Below, in pieces: positions 1 to 7,202 of a stretch of 7,245 nt of DNA (its first letter is position 1; each line of letters opens with the position of its first letter). The notes beneath the pieces were generated by a model. It saw only the letters and a list, made by a program, of their open reading frames with translations, was not told where the DNA came from and ran no database searches. The stretch lies in the NCBI GenBank assembly GCA_947259865.1, contig CAMYNZ010000322.1, forward strand, positions 1 to 7,245. Direction: 5' to 3'. This stretch comes from an uncultured Desulfobacterales bacterium (GTDB lineage Bacteria > Desulfobacterota > Desulfobacteria > Desulfobacterales > G020354645). The translations under genes were made by a program, and so were the position numbers.

Positions 1-1405
1 ACTGCCCGGCAATAATCGCTTTAGCCGGTATGAGTCCGGTGGCACTGGCGGATACGATGTTACCGGCCACACCGGGCCCGTCTCCGGCCACATACATACC
101 ACGGATCGCGGTTTCCAGCGCATTCGAACTCTCAACCTGGGTTGCAAAGAATTTGATCTCCGGAGCATACAGCAGGGTTTCATCGTTGGCCACACCGGGA
201 ACCACACAATTGAGCTTTTCCAACCCCTCGATGATGTTGGTCAAGATCCTTTCGGGCAATGCCATGGCGATATCCCCGCAGACAACCTTGGTCAATGTCG
301 GCTCGATATAGCTGTTTTTTATCCGACCCCAGGTGCTGCGCCTGCCGCGTTTAAGGTCACCAAAGCGCTGCAGGATGGGTTTGCCGCCACCTATCAAAGT
401 AGCCAGATTACCGATTGATTCACCATAGGCCTGGTTGTCGGTTACCGGCTCGGTCAGCACAACTTTGGACAGAAAGGCAAAGTTCGTATTCTCTGATTTT
501 GTGTGCTGGTAGGCGTGGCCGTTGACACAGACAAATTCACTGTAGTTTTCGATGGAAACAAATCCGCCCTTGTTAGTGCAAAAGGTCCGGGTATGATCGT
601 CATATTTTGAGGTTTGAATAAAAAAAGTGGGATCGTATATCACCCTGCAAAGATCCTGCATAATATCATTGTGAACCTCCACCCGAACACCGACTTCTAT
701 ACCCCGCTGTTTGAGCCCGATCCCATGGCTCTGGGCCAGGCGCCCGACCCAATCCGCACCGACCCGACCCGGCGCCAGAATTACGTTTTGGGTTGCGTAT
801 ATTTTTCTATTGGTAACCAGGCCTGTGACCCGTCCTTTTTCAATCACTACATCTTTAACTTCTTCAGATGTATGCATAGTCACCCCATTGGATTTAATGG
901 CACCGGCCATTGTGGCAATGTGGCCGGGCAGGCAGTCGCTTCCCAAATGCTTTTGCTTGATGATAAGCAAATCAACCCCGTGGGTTTTGGCTTTTTTGCG
1001 GATGTCCTTGGCGGCTTCCATATCGGTTGGATATACGGGGCCGTGCATCCCAAACCGGTTAAAGATACTTTCGGTTTCGTCCACAAGTGCCTTTGCCTGT
1101 TTAACGGGCATAAACTGGGTCAAGTCTGTTTTGCCGAGTTTGTGGATGTAATTCAGTTTTCCGTCCGAAAACAATCCGGCACCGCCGATGCCGCATAAAA
1201 TATTGCACGGTTTGCACTTATAGCAATGTTGGTGCGCATTGATGGGACACTGCCGGTTGGCCAGACTTTTACCTTTCTCGATTATAAGTACTTTAAGATC
1301 CGAGTTCTCGCTCAAATACCAGGCGGCAAATAAGCCGGCAGGACCGCCACCCACAATGATGACGTCATATTTTTTATCTATTTCACTGGCTTTTACAGCA
1401 GACAT
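1..1405 (-). CDS. FAD-dependent dehydrogenase of the COG2509 type, C-terminus cut by window edge
   Basis: The minus frame is open from ATG at 1405 to the window edge (468 codons seen). It starts with a dinucleotide-binding Rossmann motif, VGGGPAG, at residues 18-24, with IIEKG at 41-45 ending the second strand. A cysteine cluster follows (C53, C61, C64, C67, C71), running into GIGGAGLFSDGKL at 72-84. Near the end is a second FAD contact, VAGDGPGVAGNI, followed by SASATGLIPAKAI, so only a few residues are probably missing. These features match the uncharacterised FAD-utilising dehydrogenases of COG2509. The substrate is unknown; a cytoplasmic redox role is inferred. The start is supported by an in-frame TGA 33 bases upstream and by a strong promoter, although the Shine-Dalgarno sequence is poor (GGAAAAAAAG). 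The gene is monocistronic in this window. Confidence 0.88.
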   Translation of the reverse strand, partial: MSAVKASEIDKKYDVIIVGGGPAGLFAAWYLSENSDLKVLIIEKGKSLANRQCPINAHQHCYKCKPCNILCGIGGAGLFSDGKLNYIHKLGKTDLTQFMPVKQAKALVDETESIFNRFGMHGPVYPTDMEAAKDIRKKAKTHGVDLLIIKQKHLGSDCLPGHIATMAGAIKSNGVTMHTSEEVKDVVIEKGRVTGLVTNRKIYATQNVILAPGRVGADWVGRLAQSHGIGLKQRGIEVGVRVEVHNDIMQDLCRVIYDPTFFIQTSKYDDHTRTFCTNKGGFVSIENYSEFVCVNGHAYQHTKSENTNFAFLSKVVLTEPVTDNQAYGESIGNLATLIGGGKPILQRFGDLKRGRRSTWGRIKNSYIEPTLTKVVCGDIAMALPERILTNIIEGLEKLNCVVPGVANDETLLYAPEIKFFATQVESSNALETAIRGMYVAGDGPGVAGNIVSASATGLIPAKAIIAGQ

Positions 1406-1808: not shown

Positions 1809-3134
1809 TTATTGCATTTCATCAACAAGTTTTTTAAATTCTACCGAATCCGTTAAAATCTTTTGAGCTGCCGCCTTTAACCTGTCAACATCGCTCGCTT
1901 CAAGATGAAAGGAGGTCGGGAGGTTTTTAAGATGATTGCGCTCAGATTCATCCTTTAGCTCGTCAAAGTCCACCTCGATAAGGTAAGTTCGAGCAGCACA
2001 GGCAGGGGTTTCGCCAGAGAATCCTTGCTGCTTCGTTTTTTTAGAGGATGTCCCACGGCCGCAGCGACCGGTGGTAATCGTCTCCCGCCAGCGGCTGATA
2101 TTATTTCTTAATAATTCCATGGTTTCAAAAGAGTATTGAGTCAGTGGGATAGAAGAACCCGCACCTAACGAATCAATTAGTGGGATAGAAAAATCTCTTT
2201 TACTGAAACTCGTGTCCCTGGCCTTCTGGGCATTGACAACGATGATGGCAAATTTGTTTGTTTTTTCAAGATCAAGTTCTTTGAGTTTGTTCCAGATGCC
2301 TTCCCCACTTAAAGTAGTATTTATCAGCACCCGAATTCCATGATTTTCTGATATACCTCAGTCGAGCAAGTGGATATAAGGTTGGATTTTTCGATCGTTA
2401 TAATTGCTCAGCGTTTTGGCCATGTGGTAATGGCGCGTGTTTATTTTTCCTTTATTGAGGGCTTTGGTGGCCCACTTTGGCATCTGGTAATTACATGATC
2501 CGGCGTAATTTTTAATAATGATGCTGGGGAATGCGCCTGGAACCGCAGAGGAAGCAGTAACGGCACGAGATACGGGGTATGAAGCAAGGTCGGAGCAGAT
2601 GGGCTTAAACTGCTCTCCTGTGAAAGTAAACTGGGATCCCTGGGCGACATTGGTTGCATTGATGGCTATCACCGGACCATTCGAAGTGATGAAATCTTGA
2701 AAAGTTTTTTTTTGAAACAACAGTTCGTCATAGTAATCTGCGGCGAGATCGCTGCGTCCGTAATGCAGCGAAGCCAATTTGGGCCAGCTAAATGGTGAAA
2801 TTACGCGTCTGGTAAGCTCGGACTGCACATTGTGTTTGAGGAATTTAGTTTCAAAGTCCTCGAAGATTCGGTCTTTGAAAAGACCGTAATAGGCAGCGGT
2901 AACCCCGAATGCCAAAGCCGCCGCTCGGGTACCACCGCCTGAAAATGTTAAAATCAGCAGGAGTTCATCCGAACGACTTCCAGGTTTATTTTCGAGTGAA
3001 AATTGCCGGACCGACTCTGTGGATACGATCGGGTTGTTGATGGGATAGTGGGCAACACAGGCAGTCAGTTGAACAAACAGTGCGAATCCTAAAATAGTTA
3101 TTAGAAATTTCTCTATTTTTAACACATCCTGCAT
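1809..3134 (-). pseudogene. Broken patatin-like phospholipase lipoprotein
   Basis: One minus frame runs from ATG 3134 to TAA 1809, interrupted by a single TGA at 2358-2360 (441 codons plus stop). The N-terminus is a lipoprotein signal: basic start, hydrophobic 10-22, lipobox LTAC with C26. Residues 64-70 carry the patatin oxyanion loop FSGGGTR. In this family the nucleophile motif GxSxG should follow some 35 residues later, ahead of a TAAYYGLF-like stretch; here GV78 joins directly to T79AAYYGLF, so that block appears deleted in frame. The catalytic Asp region reads IHLLD, then TGA, then GIS, where family members have DGG. The remainder still reads like the family C-terminus (YLIEVDFDEL, NLPTSFHL). 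A strong GGAGG site (3141-3145) precedes the ATG. Such proteins are predicted membrane-anchored lipid acyl hydrolases; this copy should be inactive. The family comparison is from memory, not an alignment. Confidence 0.82.
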
Positions 3135-3278: not shown

Positions 3279-4286
3279 CTATACTCGAACCCCTTCAATT
3301 ATGCAAACACTCTCTTTAGTAAGTATAATCCGGGAGAGTTTGAAACCTGACGATACGAACAGGTTGCTAAACTCTGCTTCCGTCCGTTCTCGGCCGCCCG
3401 TAATGACAAGCATTTCAAGATCCAGGAGCTTAGCAACGGAGGGCTCGTTTCCGGGAGGTATAACCATCTCAACAACCAAAAGCCTTGATGCTGTATTCAT
3501 GGCTCGGTGGCAGTTTGTCAGAAATATCCGGCACTGCTCATCCGTCCAATCATGAAGGATATTTGACATGAGATACGCGTCACTACCCGGGGGAATATTC
3601 TTAAAAAAATCACATTCTACTGCCTGACAACGATCTTCAATACCTCGGGTCTGGATCACTTTTCTGGTCTTTTGAATTACAGAAGGAATATCTGCCACGA
3701 CCCCTTCCATTAAAGGATTTGCTATCAGAATTTCTGCCATCAAGACACCCAGCCCTCCGCCCACATCCGTTAGTGTACTGATGCCTGAAAAATCATAGAC
3801 ATCAACAATTGCACGGTGTGAGCCAGCAGCTTTTATTGCATTGGCTTCATTAAACACTTCTGCTGCCTGAGGGTTTTTTTCAAGCCAATCAGAAACCGAC
3901 GTCCCATGAGCTTTTTCAAAGGCTGTGACCCCTGTTTTTACACTATCCAAAAAATATCCCCACGCCTTGTCACTCCAGTCAGAGTTAAACAGTAGCGCTA
4001 CGGATCTCATTGCACCCGTTTTCAAATACTCAGCCATTGGTGTAAGTTCAAACCGTTTGGCTTCTGTCTCGAAAAAAATACCGACACTCGCCAGGGCTCT
4101 CATCATCCTGTAAAGAAAAGGTGCATGGGAGTGGCTTGCTTGGGCGAGTTCTTCTACACTTTTGGGACCTTCAGCCAGCATATCGGCTATGCCAAGCTCG
4201 GCCGCTACGTAAATAGGTTTGCTTATCCAATTTCCGACGATAAATTTCATAAGCTGTGCTGGTGGTGGTAACTCGTTCGGTTTCAT
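3279..4286 (-). CDS. SAM-dependent O-methyltransferase (COMT-like, Methyltransf_2 family)
   Basis: This is an intact 335-residue protein of usual family length. Residues 10-90 look like the N-terminal winged-helix dimerisation domain (ISKPIYVAAELGIADMLAEGPKSVEELA). SAM-binding motif I is DVGGGLGVL at 174-182; ADIPSVI at 198-204 takes the place of the family DLPxV. CDFFKNIPPGSDAYLMSNIL at 225-244 leads into H245-D246-W247, where the His corresponds to the catalytic base of plant-type O-methyltransferases. GGRERTEAEF at 297-306 is the usual C-terminal signature. It should transfer a methyl group from SAM to a hydroxyl of a small, probably aromatic or polyketide-like, molecule; the substrate cannot be read from sequence. 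AAGGAG (4293-4298) is well placed before ATG 4286. No biosynthetic partners lie beside it. Confidence 0.88.
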   Translation of the reverse strand: MKPNELPPPAQLMKFIVGNWISKPIYVAAELGIADMLAEGPKSVEELAQASHSHAPFLYRMMRALASVGIFFETEAKRFELTPMAEYLKTGAMRSVALLFNSDWSDKAWGYFLDSVKTGVTAFEKAHGTSVSDWLEKNPQAAEVFNEANAIKAAGSHRAIVDVYDFSGISTLTDVGGGLGVLMAEILIANPLMEGVVADIPSVIQKTRKVIQTRGIEDRCQAVECDFFKNIPPGSDAYLMSNILHDWTDEQCRIFLTNCHRAMNTASRLLVVEMVIPPGNEPSVAKLLDLEMLVITGGRERTEAEFSNLFVSSGFKLSRIILTKESVCIIEGVRV

Positions 4287-4619
4287 TTCTATCTCCTTTT
4301 GTTGGAATAATTTATTAGCTACGGATTACCATAAAACTTTACGAGGCATTCGCCTCGCGCTTTAATAAATCTGTTTTAGGTAACGCAAACTTTTCGTTAC
4401 TTATCCGCTGATATCGCTACGGATTTCTAATTTTAAGGATTTTCAGGTCAGGAATTTTGAATCAGAAAAGAAAAAAAGCTAATGGATGCAAAATGGCATG
4501 TTTTAAGGAAATGAAAAATACAAGTAAGATCGGATATTCAAGCTTTGTTGACGCGTGAAGGTTACACACGAACCGACTGAATGTCAATACAGTTGCGATA
4601 AATTTCCGATAAAAAGGGG
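4287..4619. other. 333-bp non-coding leader and insertion-site flank
   Basis: No supported gene. The part nearest the methyltransferase is its leader, with a strong ribosome site but no convincing promoter. It contains a 6-bp hairpin with four-base loop (4342-4357), another inverted repeat GTAACG/CGTTAC (4380-4385/4395-4400) and a 10-bp direct repeat, GCTACGGATT, at 4318-4327 and 4416-4425. At 4535-4547 is TATTCAAGCTTTG, identical to 13 bases of the inverted repeat at 6332-6344. The last bases, AAAAAGGGG at 4611-4619, form the left flank of the insertion sequence. Confidence 0.55.
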
Positions 4620-4627
4620 TCACCCAT

Positions 4628-4637
4628 TAAAAGGCGC
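4628..4637 (-). repeat. IS subterminal inverted repeat, downstream (RE) side
   Basis: The minus-strand reading outward is GCGCCTTTTA, 9/10 identical to GTGCCTTTTA at the other end. It ends about six to eight bases inside the inferred junction. Subterminal rather than terminal repeats are typical of the IS1111 subgroup. Confidence 0.65.
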
Positions 4638-4691: not shown

Positions 4692-4854
4692 TTATCTCAG
4701 CGATGGTATCACCTCATATATACTGAAGCTCAGCGTTTTTTTACCGCACCCGCAGTTTCTTTAGATTGAAGTGCAGCCTATGGTATACTGCACCAGTCAC
4801 CCATCAGGATTAAGGCCATTGGACTCGATCGATTCATATCGTGTCGCGACCCTT

Positions 4855-4870
4855 GTCCGCTTTAGCGGAC
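4855..4870 (-). repeat. Perfect 6-bp hairpin within the predicted RNA
   Basis: GTCCGC (4855-4860) and GCGGAC (4865-4870) pair perfectly around a four-base loop, separating stem-loop 2 from the donor-like segment. A second inverted repeat, GTGCAG/CTGCAC (4771-4776/4788-4793), closes the far side of that segment. Confidence 0.5.
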
Positions 4871-4915
4871 CCAGAAAATCTTCGGTACCATGGACGTGTC
4901 CAATATTGTTTTTTC

Positions 4916-4954
4916 TCAAATCTTATGGTTATTAGCCAACCCCTTCTGGCTCAC
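4916..4954 (-). repeat. Core of stem-loop 2, candidate target-binding loop
   Basis: In RNA sense the 5' side holds AGAAGGGGT (4939-4947), 8/9 identical to the left target flank at 4612-4620. The 3' side holds AAGATTTGA (4916-4924), 8/9 complementary to the right target flank at 6183-6191. The two stretches meet at the inferred junction TC/GA. This is the split-guide arrangement of a bridge RNA target loop. The sister core at 5009-5047 matches the same target positions less well (7/9 and 7/9). Confidence 0.5.
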
Positions 4955-5008
4955 GCCATGGGCAGTAAAAGTGTCTGATGCTTCATATTGGGTGGAACGG
5001 CTTTCCAA

Positions 5009-5047
5009 TCAAATCTAATGGTTTTTCCAACCCCTATACAGGTTCAC
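5009..5047 (-). repeat. Core of stem-loop 1, sister copy of the target-like loop
   Basis: This 39-nt core aligns with 4916-4954 along its length; for example TCAAATCTAATGGTT at 5009-5023 matches 4916-4930 at 14/15. It is 93 bases away and enclosed by its own stem. It may be a duplicated target loop, a structural scaffold or a drifted donor loop. It contains no clear match to the donor ends. Confidence 0.5.
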
Positions 5048-5060
5048 CGCTCCAGCCACT

Positions 5061-6083
5061 TCATTTTGCAAAAAGCTTGGCAGCATCAAATGGCACTACG
5101 TCCTTGATGACAAAGTAAGCCGCTCGGGCCAACTTGTGAGCCAAAGCGCTGTGCGCTACCATGCGGTTGGTCTTGGCGGCTTTGCGATTAAAATAGGCCC
5201 GGGCATCAGAGTCATAACGCCGGGCAAATTCAACCGCCTCGGAAAAGGCCCAGGCCAGATAGCGGTTACCGTTTTTCTTGTTGCCTTTGCCTTTTGCTTT
5301 ACCGTTGCTGGTCCACTTTGTGGGAACTTTGCGACAGTAAGACACGTAGTCACCGACTTTGGCGAACCGATCGATAGGACCGGTCTCCAACATGATCGTC
5401 ATCGACAATATCTTGCCCACACCCGATATGGTCGGCAAATACTTGAAGGCCGGCTGCAACTTGACTTTCTTTTGCACGGCGTTTTCTATTTGCCGGATCT
5501 TGCCTGTTAAAAAATCAATGCATTCCTTGCTGACCCGCCCACTGAGCTCCAGATCCTGCTGTCCGGCCAATAACGGAACCACCTCGTCTTGGGTTACTTT
5601 CTTGACCTGATTTACGTTCACTCTCAAGCCACAATTTCTATGGATAATGCCTTGTAAGCTTAAAATCAAAGAAGTCCTCAGTTTTACCAAGTGGCCTCTT
5701 TTCCTCAGCAAGTCACGCACCGGACGCTGCGCCTTGGGATATATGTAGCCCTCAGGCAAAATCCCCAAACGCAGAAGATGGGCCAGCCAAAACGCATCAT
5801 GATTGTCATCGCTATGTTTAAGACCTTTGTATTTTTGGATAGCTGAAGGATTGGCCAGGTGTAATTGATAACCCTGATCCATTAAAAGATCCACCAGCCA
5901 GTACCAGTTAAAAGTTGATTCGACCACCACCCCCTTTAGAGTCTGCTTGAATGGTGCTAAGGCTTCAAGGATAAGATTCGGGGCATTGGCTAACTTCTTG
6001 CGGTAAACACGTCTGTCTTGCTCGTTAATGATTCCAATGTGATTACTGGTTGAATGTAAATCAATTCCTGCGTATAGTTGCAT
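5061..6083 (-). CDS. IS110-family (IS1111-type) transposase
   Basis: The 340-residue protein is intact and of normal family length. The N-terminal RuvC-like DEDD domain shows D8 in YAGIDLHS, E55 in VVVEST, and D93/D96 in DDNHDAFWLA. The middle (120-210) is likely helical and coiled-coil. The C-terminal Tnp domain has ISGVGKILSMTIMLETG at 219-235 and WTSNGKAKG at 257-265, where S259 is the likely catalytic serine, then GNRYLAWAFSEA. IS110 enzymes recombine donor and target DNA using a DEDD-plus-serine chemistry guided by an element-encoded RNA. GGAGG (6090-6094) sits six bases before ATG 6083. All expected catalytic residues are present, so the element could be active. The gene stops two to three bases before the predicted guide RNA begins. 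Confidence 0.93.
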   Translation of the reverse strand: MQLYAGIDLHSTSNHIGIINEQDRRVYRKKLANAPNLILEALAPFKQTLKGVVVESTFNWYWLVDLLMDQGYQLHLANPSAIQKYKGLKHSDDNHDAFWLAHLLRLGILPEGYIYPKAQRPVRDLLRKRGHLVKLRTSLILSLQGIIHRNCGLRVNVNQVKKVTQDEVVPLLAGQQDLELSGRVSKECIDFLTGKIRQIENAVQKKVKLQPAFKYLPTISGVGKILSMTIMLETGPIDRFAKVGDYVSYCRKVPTKWTSNGKAKGKGNKKNGNRYLAWAFSEAVEFARRYDSDARAYFNRKAAKTNRMVAHSALAHKLARAAYFVIKDVVPFDAAKLFAK

Positions 6084-6169
6084 GGGGCACCTCCTTGCTG
6101 TTTATGGTTTACTCACCACAAAGCATACCAGGAGATTCTTTCTTTTGCTATGCCCCAGTAGGGGGTGCC
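6083..6169 (-). promoter_or_regulatory. Leader able to mask the transposase ribosome site
   Basis: In a minus-strand transcript entering from outside the element, GGCACCCCC (6169-6161) can pair with GGAGGTGCC (6094-6086) at 8/9, burying the Shine-Dalgarno sequence. TGGGGCA (6157-6151) can pair perfectly with TGCCCCA (6089-6083), reaching the first base of the start codon. A transcript beginning inside the leader would lack the upstream arm. Masking of transposase starts against read-through is known in other insertion sequences; its use here is inferred. Confidence 0.42.
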
Positions 6170-6174
6170 TTTTA
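6165..6174 (+). repeat. IS subterminal inverted repeat, transposase (LE) side
   Basis: GTGCCTTTTA reads outward here and matches the opposite end at 9/10. It lies about eight bases inside the junction with TCAAAGCTTG. Confidence 0.65.
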
Positions 6175-6182
6175 TATGATTA

Positions 6183-6345
6183 TCAAAGCTTGAATAGTGA
6201 ATTAAATCGATTATAATTTATTTTTAGATTATTAAATCCTTGCCGATTGCATTAATCCTTCATTCCAAACACCCATTCTCATATAATAAATTTCCATTGA
6301 AAATTTCCAATCAGCTTAAAAGTTTATTCACTATTCAAGCTTTGA
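6183..6345. repeat. MITE-like unit bounded by 20-bp perfect inverted repeats
   Basis: TCAAAGCTTGAATAGTGAAT (6183-6202) is the exact reverse complement of 6326-6345. The enclosed 123 bases are strongly AT-rich and hold no credible gene. The right repeat continues outward as CCC (6346-6348), and the left repeat regains GGG once the insertion sequence is removed, so the full repeat was at least 23 bp. Seventeen bases separate it from the N-acetyltransferase stop. A miniature transposon or a large hairpin repeat is likely. No transposase of its own is present. Confidence 0.65.
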
Positions 6346-6362: not shown

Positions 6363-7202
6363 TCAGCAGAATCCGAAAGCGGGCCCCTCTTCTTCTTGGT
6401 CAGTTTCCGGAAGTGGGCAAAGCGCCTCATAGGGTGCATCGAGTTCAATACCAAAATGATCCTTTAATGCATCGATATACAATTGCCCCTCAGGCAATTC
6501 TTGAACCTGCTCTTTGTCCGCAGTCAGTCTTTTCAATGTATTATTGAAAAGTGTGATTACTCCGTTATGAACCGGGAGCGCCGCCACTCTGGCAAAGGTA
6601 AAGAACGAGCTGGGATGGGTCGAGGTGAAGTGATTCCCGTATGCGATGTCAGCTGGGCACACATGCCCCAAATCGAAACTATAAAGATCTTGCCATTGAT
6701 CGTCTTTTAAGGTCTGGAGCATGATGCCGAAAGGCCCTGCATCCACGAGACGAAATGTCTGTCCATCTTGGGTTGCTGGGTGATCGAGTTCTAACGGAAT
6801 CGGGGCACGTAGATTTGGATTCCCAAACCCCACGTCGGTAATCCATTGCCTCCCCTGAACTGATACGAGTGCAACCTGATGTCCCCGGCCCGATGGTGTG
6901 CCGGTTAAGTGAACCCGGGCCAGAAGAGCGCGGGCGTCGAAGCCAACAGCCTTGAGAGCCATAAGAAACAAGCCGTTCAACTCAAAGCAGTAGCCACCGC
7001 GTGCCCTGTTCACCATTTTGTCGAAGAGCGCTGCTGGTTCTAGCGATATGCCACGTCCCAAAAGAATATCGAAATTCTCTAATGGGATTGTGAAGTATTG
7101 AGCGCGGTGGAGGGCTTCAAGCCGATCCTCTGTTGGTTGTATGACCCCGGAATAGTTCAGGCGTTCGAGGTAGGCGTCAAGTTCAAATTCTTTATTGTCC
7201 AT
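6363..7202 (-). CDS. nat: Arylamine N-acetyltransferase
   Basis: This 279-residue protein has the length and catalytic triad of bacterial NAT enzymes: C72 in RGGYCFELN, H108 in GRGHQVAL and D123 in ITDVGFG. IPLENFDIL at 39-47 is the conserved N-terminal signature. It moves an acetyl group from acetyl-CoA through the active Cys to arylamines, hydrazines or similar cytosolic substrates; the physiological substrate is not evident. AAGGA lies about ten bases before ATG 7202, a modest ribosome site. The C-terminal tail is acidic (ETDQEEEGP) and ends in FGFC. No co-transcribed gene is visible: the inverted-repeat unit follows directly and the window ends 43 bases upstream of the start. Confidence in family is high, in start fairly high. 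Confidence 0.93.
   Translation of the reverse strand: MDNKEFELDAYLERLNYSGVIQPTEDRLEALHRAQYFTIPLENFDILLGRGISLEPAALFDKMVNRARGGYCFELNGLFLMALKAVGFDARALLARVHLTGTPSGRGHQVALVSVQGRQWITDVGFGNPNLRAPIPLELDHPATQDGQTFRLVDAGPFGIMLQTLKDDQWQDLYSFDLGHVCPADIAYGNHFTSTHPSSFFTFARVAALPVHNGVITLFNNTLKRLTADKEQVQELPEGQLYIDALKDHFGIELDAPYEALCPLPETDQEEEGPAFGFC

Follow-up and report, generated by a model that had tools for sequence, protein, structure and literature searches.

The window, by which we mean the whole 7,245-nucleotide stretch of DNA analysed here, holds a single IS110-family element, which lies on the minus strand. Its features, with element ends deduced from 21 of 24 related loci, are as follows.

2-1405, minus strand: FAD-dependent oxidoreductase (Pfam)
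3279-4286, minus strand: O-methyltransferase (Pfam)
4611-4620, minus strand: right target flank ACCCCTTTTT, whose ACCCCT is complemented by the 5' guide of SL1
4621-4635, minus strand: right end of the element: GCCTTTT, which forms the right arm of the subterminal inverted repeat, followed by AATGGG and the TG core at 4622-4621
4790-4889, minus strand: SL3, predicted donor module, with 5' guide 4883-4871, hairpin 4870-4855 and 3' guide TCC-TGATGGG-TG-AC-TGG at 4809-4793
4888-4961, minus strand: SL2, second target-like loop, with stem 4961-4952/4898-4888, 5' guide 4948-4939 and 3' guide, including a long core-to-box spacer, at 4925-4900
4989-5058, minus strand: SL1, predicted target loop, with stem 5058-5046/5001-4989, 5' guide 5039-5030 and 3' guide LT-TG-AT-TGG at 5018-5005
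5061-6083, minus strand: IS110-family RNA-guided transposase of 340 aa, with Pfam domains PF01548 (DEDD) and PF02371 (Transposase_20) and a match to NCBIfam NF033542 above cut-off
6167-6185, minus strand: left end of the element: the TG core at 6185-6184, followed by ATAATCATAT and by AAAAGGC, which forms the left arm of the subterminal inverted repeat
6186-6193, minus strand: left target flank TCAAGCTT, whose inner five bases AGCTT agree with the SL1 guide AGATT at 4/5
6329-6345, plus strand: second copy of the left-target sequence, inverted and uninterrupted, reading CACTATTCAAGCTTTGA then CCCT
6363-7202, minus strand: arylamine N-acetyltransferase (Pfam)

Two further open frames adjoin each other on the minus strand at 1809-3134; the upstream one (2358-3134) is weakly patatin-like, below the Pfam cut-off, and the two may be one gene split around 2330-2358. 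No Rfam family matched anywhere in the window, and a search of viral contigs for relatives of the transposase found none.

The DEDD and Transposase_20 domains place the protein in the IS110 family, and by sequence the solved structures nearest to it are those of the IS621 and ISCro4 transposases. Across the related loci the ends are laid out as left flank - TG - ATAATCATATAAAAGGC ... GCCTTTTAATGGG - TG - right flank, and the left-end motif also lies upstream of the gene in those relatives where the left end is present. Because the element has a 7-bp subterminal inverted repeat (AAAAGGC / GCCTTTT, within the 7-17 bp range of the IS1111 group), a long noncoding region downstream of the gene (~440 nt, versus ~100 nt upstream) and SL1 guides that match the top strand and then the bottom strand of the target flanks, it fits the IS1111 group as described in PMC11187229 and PMC11208160.

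The second copy of the left-target sequence at 6329-6345 is likely the target in unoccupied form, its CCCT continuation being what is expected of an empty target. Inverted copies of TTCACTATTCAAGCTTTGA at 6183-6201 (minus), on the left edge of the element, and at 6327-6345 (plus), ~130 bp further out, look like the paired arms of a REP-like palindrome. At one related locus (L012), the next open frame downstream of a truncated transposase presumably encodes a REP-associated tyrosine transposase, with GGTGTCAGACCTAC-type repeats nearby, a context which suggests that the window's element family targets REP sequences. Two other loci carry the right end in tandem duplicate (L060 near 3044-3065 and L087 near 2929-2957, in reverse-complement coordinates). 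The ACCCC flank of L087 sits between its tandem right ends, and the real right flank of L060, beyond the tandem right end, also starts with CC; these duplicates are perhaps the footprints of repeated insertion beside the right end.

To compare the downstream region across relatives, SL1 homologues were located with nhmmer and then read with a motif parser, an initial regular expression having matched 2 loci only. Among the window and 119 loci there were 86 distinct downstream regions, 72 of which the parser handled. The 14 failures comprise truncated or interrupted copies (L022, L048, L049, L067, L089, L118), offsets (L036, L055, L075, the same RNA being seen under L017/L036, L021/L055 and L051) and five distant members (L082, L083, L085, L114, L119). 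Three of the 72 were taken out manually, being misparsed or without the RNA (L047/L012, L088, L113), leaving 69 elements including the window. Right flanks were found for 57, of which 52 were used (3 unreliable and 2 too short), and left flanks for 44, of which 43 were used (one reads N). The alignment holds 67 of the 69, with L104 and L106 omitted for their extra loop, and hand edits were made to the 5' guides of L099, L108 and L112, the left flank of L080 and SL2 of L100 and L103. Where measured, transposases of the kept elements are ~41-69% identical to that of the window; closer proteins, up to 94% identical, lie outside the compared elements. The hosts that bear a title are mostly genomes of deltaproteobacterial groups; further genomes belong to those same classes, and some elements sit on plasmids of Burkholderiales or of Pseudomonas aeruginosa.

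Downstream of the transposase gene, and on its strand, three modules follow one another in the order SL1, SL2, SL3. The preliminary description had proposed a guide RNA of this design, with two loops resembling the target and a separate donor-like segment, and all three modules indeed lie on the minus strand, the donor-like segment being SL3. The modules have a common grammar, with exceptions in individual elements: (A)CC - 5' guide - YUGG - hairpin - CC(A) - 7 nt - TG - spacer - UGG. It is in the spacer between core and UGG that they differ. This is 2 nt in 68/69 elements for SL1 and in 61/63 parsed elements for SL3 (6 further elements are unparsed), while for SL2 it ranges over 5-28 nt, is 10-14 nt in 59/67 and is typically ~12. 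Two target-like loops were parsed in all 69 kept elements, and in the 63 where a donor motif could be parsed it follows both of them, a departure from the exactly two guide loops of the IS621 type. In two related elements, L104 and L106, SL2 is preceded by two SL1-type loops whose guides differ, making three target-like loops per region; the transposase of L106 contains in-frame stops. Among more distant members, L082, L083, L085, L113, L114, L119 (31-36% identical) and L121 have by eye a like second loop with a 2-nt spacer; their left guide often fits the flank poorly, and that of L113 does not fit (by eye; the region of L114 is incomplete at its end). A nucleotide search with L113:1-1200 gave no match, and no loops were seen by eye downstream in L122, one of four regions (L120-L123) taken from the plasmid matches.

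SL1 to SL2 spans 171 nt in the window, and the two loops are alike in two blocks, GGGGTTGG and AGATTTGA. They had been described as sharing a nearly identical 39-nt core, 93 bases apart; the likeness does exist, at a distance of ~91 nt, but "nearly identical" is generous, since an indel lies between the blocks and an ungapped repeat finder did not list the pair. As for the two proposed stems, that at 4952-4961/4888-4898 was given correctly, whereas the extent of the other (5047-5053/4994-5000) had been understated, the actual helix pairing 5058-5046 with 5001-4989. Both are present in the minimum-energy fold of 4790-5061 on the minus strand (-85 kcal/mol, z -2.42, 2/200 shuffles equally good), in which SL3 is branched between its guides.

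Compensatory changes in both stems, on which the proposal had been staked, are present. Across the alignment of 67 elements, the window plus 66 relatives, 24/33 pairs show two-sided changes, including 11/12 pairs of the SL1 stem and 9/13 of the SL2 helix. The covariation score is 0.361 versus 0.184 for shuffles, and 0/500 shuffles reach any of five measures. When the two-loop structure is laid on the alignment, 90.7% of cells pair, compared with 26.0-49.4% when it is slid by 1-3 columns, a tally in which reading the structure from the window alone favours it over the slid versions and kinship inflates the cell counts. The spread of pair types, for example GC 29, CG 23 and AU 3 at one SL1 pair, is harder to put down to a single-member structure or to kinship.

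Comparison of the guides with the flanks identifies SL1 as the putative target loop, the one that would pick the insertion site. Its 3' guide matches the left flank at 4.79/7 positions versus 2.54 when permuted (43 elements; 0/5000 permutations), and its 5' guide the right flank at 6.10/8 versus 4.22 (52 elements; 0/5000 permutations). With the sample reduced to representatives with distinct flanks, the inner left bases score 4.11/5 versus 1.83 (19 left-distinct), the inner right bases 4.38/5 versus 2.67 and the outer right bases 2.31/3 versus 1.28 (both 13 right-distinct), with 0/20000 permutations each. Single cases are L016 and L040, with 10/10 and 9/10 right-hand bases matched, and L051, L054 and L056, which come from one genome and have identical guides, and whose left flank ends in AGGTT-TG every time, as does the guide.

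SL3 has the corresponding attributes of a donor loop, and we assign it as such on the basis of its match to the element's own end and to the first bases of the target. In SL3 the 3' guide (TGATGGG-TG) repeats the right-end sequence (AATGGG-TG), and the two bases after the core are the first two right-target bases in 42/47 readable elements (permutations: mean 25.4, best of 20000 equal to 34), a match that spans AC, CC and TC types. The match follows the handshake principle that IS621 is described to use (PMC11208158). Between the 5' guide of SL3 and the left end the fit is loose (in the window GATTTTC versus the expected GATTATC, by eye). Reciprocally, the two post-core bases of SL1 match the element's left end in 40/46, although 37 of these are the common AT.

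Like SL1, SL2 matches the inner target above permutation, so that the claim of two loops resembling the target holds. Its inner left bases match the flank at 3.05/5 versus 1.74 permuted (19 left-distinct representatives; 0/20000) and its inner right bases at 3.46/5 versus 2.75 (13 right-distinct representatives; 23/20000), while its outer bases do about as well as chance predicts (14695 and 3475 of 20000). The same division is seen when SL2 is compared with SL1 in 12 target-class representatives, where the inner five agree at 3.17 versus 1.54 on the left (0/20000), with position -1 agreeing in 12/12, and at 3.17 versus 2.31 on the right (4/20000), and the outer bases show no agreement beyond permutation (6276 and 3996 of 20000).

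As a control for ancestry, elements were paired by the distance between their RNA scaffolds, with the guides masked. In 28 disjoint sister pairs, SL1 and SL2 change together 23 times at the left inner positions versus 11.2 expected (0/20000), and 10 times versus 11.7 at the left outer ones. On the right, the inner positions give 5 versus 2.9 in the 28 close pairs, which is not significant (Fisher 0.085; 2720/20000), and 15 versus 6.5 in 34 wider pairs (5/20000), in which the outer positions lean the same way (32 versus 26.3; 353/20000). Leaving out 11 hand-edited or ambiguous elements, the left inner result holds in 24 pairs (18 versus 8.9; 1/20000) and in 29 wider pairs (33 versus 20.3; 0/20000), and the right inner result is 15 versus 6.0 in wider pairs (0/20000) and 4 versus 2.0 in close pairs (2098/20000). 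L080/L081 is a clear single case of such coevolution. These observations indicate that the inner guide bases of SL2 follow SL1 and the target through retargeting, while its outer bases mostly do not.

Equivalence of the two loops is not supported. SL1 fits the inner five bases of the left flank better in 26 of 43 elements, the two are equal in 12 and SL2 is better in 5 (L005, L008, L117, L062, L026). SL2 has short guides and is without the bases for the exchanged strand: its post-core bases match the right target in 1/54 and the left end in 3/46, so the handshake seen in SL1 and SL3 is lacking. SL2 does not make up for positions at which SL1 mismatches the left flank (9/34 versus 7.1 expected), and by eye SL2 does not track short-term flank changes within the main AGRYYTG/ACCCC clade, the largest. 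In L060, also by eye, the right guide of SL2 is a closer match to the real right flank CCCTCCCC than that of SL1 (7 versus 5 of 8). A crude unaided scan of 35 elements, which is noisy for single elements, found SL1 in 27 and SL2 in 20, with SL2 outscoring the best other place in 11 and losing in 17; for the window, each of the two loops scores 9/10, a value equalled by 0.04 of 50 shuffles. Since such a scan does not single SL2 out, the evidence for this loop is comparative. Judged on that evidence, SL2 is a third, old and distinct module and not a recent copy of SL1; a switchable guide architecture is unsupported.

The reading that we regard as probable is that the element encodes a three-loop bridge RNA in which SL2 is an auxiliary, and probably non-exchanging, target loop. 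The RNA would be made, and bound by the transposase, and SL2 would pair with DNA. SL1 would pick the insertion site and SL3 would fit the right end, with its two handshake bases matching the first two right-hand bases of the target. SL2 would read ~3-5 bases to either side of the core; it lacks a handshake match, and its spacer is ~12 nt instead of 2. Its most likely role would then be to keep DNA of the target or flank within the recombinase while taking no part in strand exchange, at a guess during excision of the integrated element, for example, or as a check before recombination.

An alternative that we consider unlikely is that SL2 is a spare guide cassette, namely a duplicate of SL1 that is occasionally refreshed by recombination and otherwise idle, so that its likeness to the target is inherited and not selected. 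Target loops do duplicate, as the second SL1-type loop before SL2 in L104 and L106 shows, and by eye SL2 lags SL1 within the main clade. However, SL2 was parsed in 69/69 kept elements and has a conserved scaffold of its own, a stem with compensating changes and a long spacer, features that an idle copy should lose, and copying would bring the outer guide bases along as well, whereas the agreement is mainly in the inner ones.

We give distinctly less weight to SL2 being an arm of a multi-branched donor loop, in which case its likeness to the target would be a by-product of the common boxes (CC, UGG, TG). Multi-branched donor loops have been noted for many IS1111 elements (Durrant et al., PMC11208160), and SL2 lies immediately upstream of SL3. 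Yet SL3 alone can account for the donor, having a 3' guide that repeats the right end and a branched fold of its own, and the bases used in the guide comparisons are not part of the boxes and vary as the target does. The SL2 guides are variable and the ends of the element hardly so, which also disfavours SL2 as a donor loop in itself. Finally, stems alone cannot separate RNA from DNA, and the hairpins could in principle act as DNA, for example as folded single strands at the element end; this we hold to be very improbable, given the G-U combinations among the pairs (e.g. UG 15 and GU 4 at SL2 columns 159/260) and the transposase-bound RNA from the downstream region reported for four IS1111 elements (PMC11187229).

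The three-loop bridge RNA that we favour can be set beside several known systems. Like the IS1111-type seekRNA elements portrayed in PMC11187229, the window's element has subterminal inverted repeats, a noncoding region downstream of the gene and a transposase of ~340 aa that carries RuvC-like and Transposase_20 domains; in SL1, moreover, the top-strand match lies 5' of the bottom-strand match. Unlike the published short form of these seekRNAs, which is 70-100 nt long with one target-matching pair in ISEc11, ISPa11, ISKpn4 and ISPst6 (Siddiquee et al. 2024, PMC11187229), it has two target-like loops. The same source describes a long form of 145-170 nt as a potential precursor whose precise role is still to be established; since SL1 to SL2 spans 171 nt here, our guess is that the long form might equal SL1 plus SL2.

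IS621 of the IS110 group (Durrant et al., Hiraizumi et al. 2024) has guides split around a core dinucleotide and reciprocal handshake bases, as here. Its bridge RNA, as described in PMC11208160 and PMC11208158, lies in the left end and has one target and one donor loop, and the target and donor loops of one complex come from two RNA molecules. The window's element differs in its three loops, their location in the right end, its TG core and its reversed guide order. Among the matches listed in searches of open-access PubMed Central text, we recognised no paper on a bridge RNA with two target loops.

ISGsu4-type IS110 elements of Paraburkholderia plasmids (L026, annotated as ISGsu4 family, and its near relative L025), with a 48.8% identical transposase, have the same three modules in the same order and differ in their targets; no paper describing their RNA was found in open-access PubMed Central text, where one listed paper that names ISGsu4 is, by its title, on another subject. 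IS4321 of plasmid R751 (L120) resembles the window in having an IS110-like transposase and a downstream loop that matches both flanks (inner bases: 10/10 with the boundary assumed in one place, 9 and 8 with two other placements). It differs in that no second target loop stands out clearly: the runner-up position scores 8/10, a weak yardstick given that shuffled regions of other elements reach a mean best of 6.2-7.5 in a stricter search. We thus do not claim SL2 as a universal feature of IS1111 elements.

For ISEc11, excision needs both target flanks, and a short RNA with one target-matching pair is enough for transposition (PMC11187229). SL2 may thus be specific to other branches. More tentatively, and with rather more doubt than confidence, one may propose a transposon branch with a three-loop guide RNA in which a low-stringency loop of the SL2 type, unfit for exchange, reads the core-adjacent bases and licenses or directs one step. 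If so, this step would be excision, or the choice between excision and insertion, and one RNA would carry both catalytic and regulatory target guides. The published picture of the bridge RNA has two loops, and the conserved third loop here appears to read the target without handshake bases. Bridge RNAs are under development as programmable recombinases, and the third loop suggests control of excision versus insertion, or a second check of specificity. The third loop is also a candidate explanation for what the long seekRNA does, and for why ISEc11 circles need target flanks.
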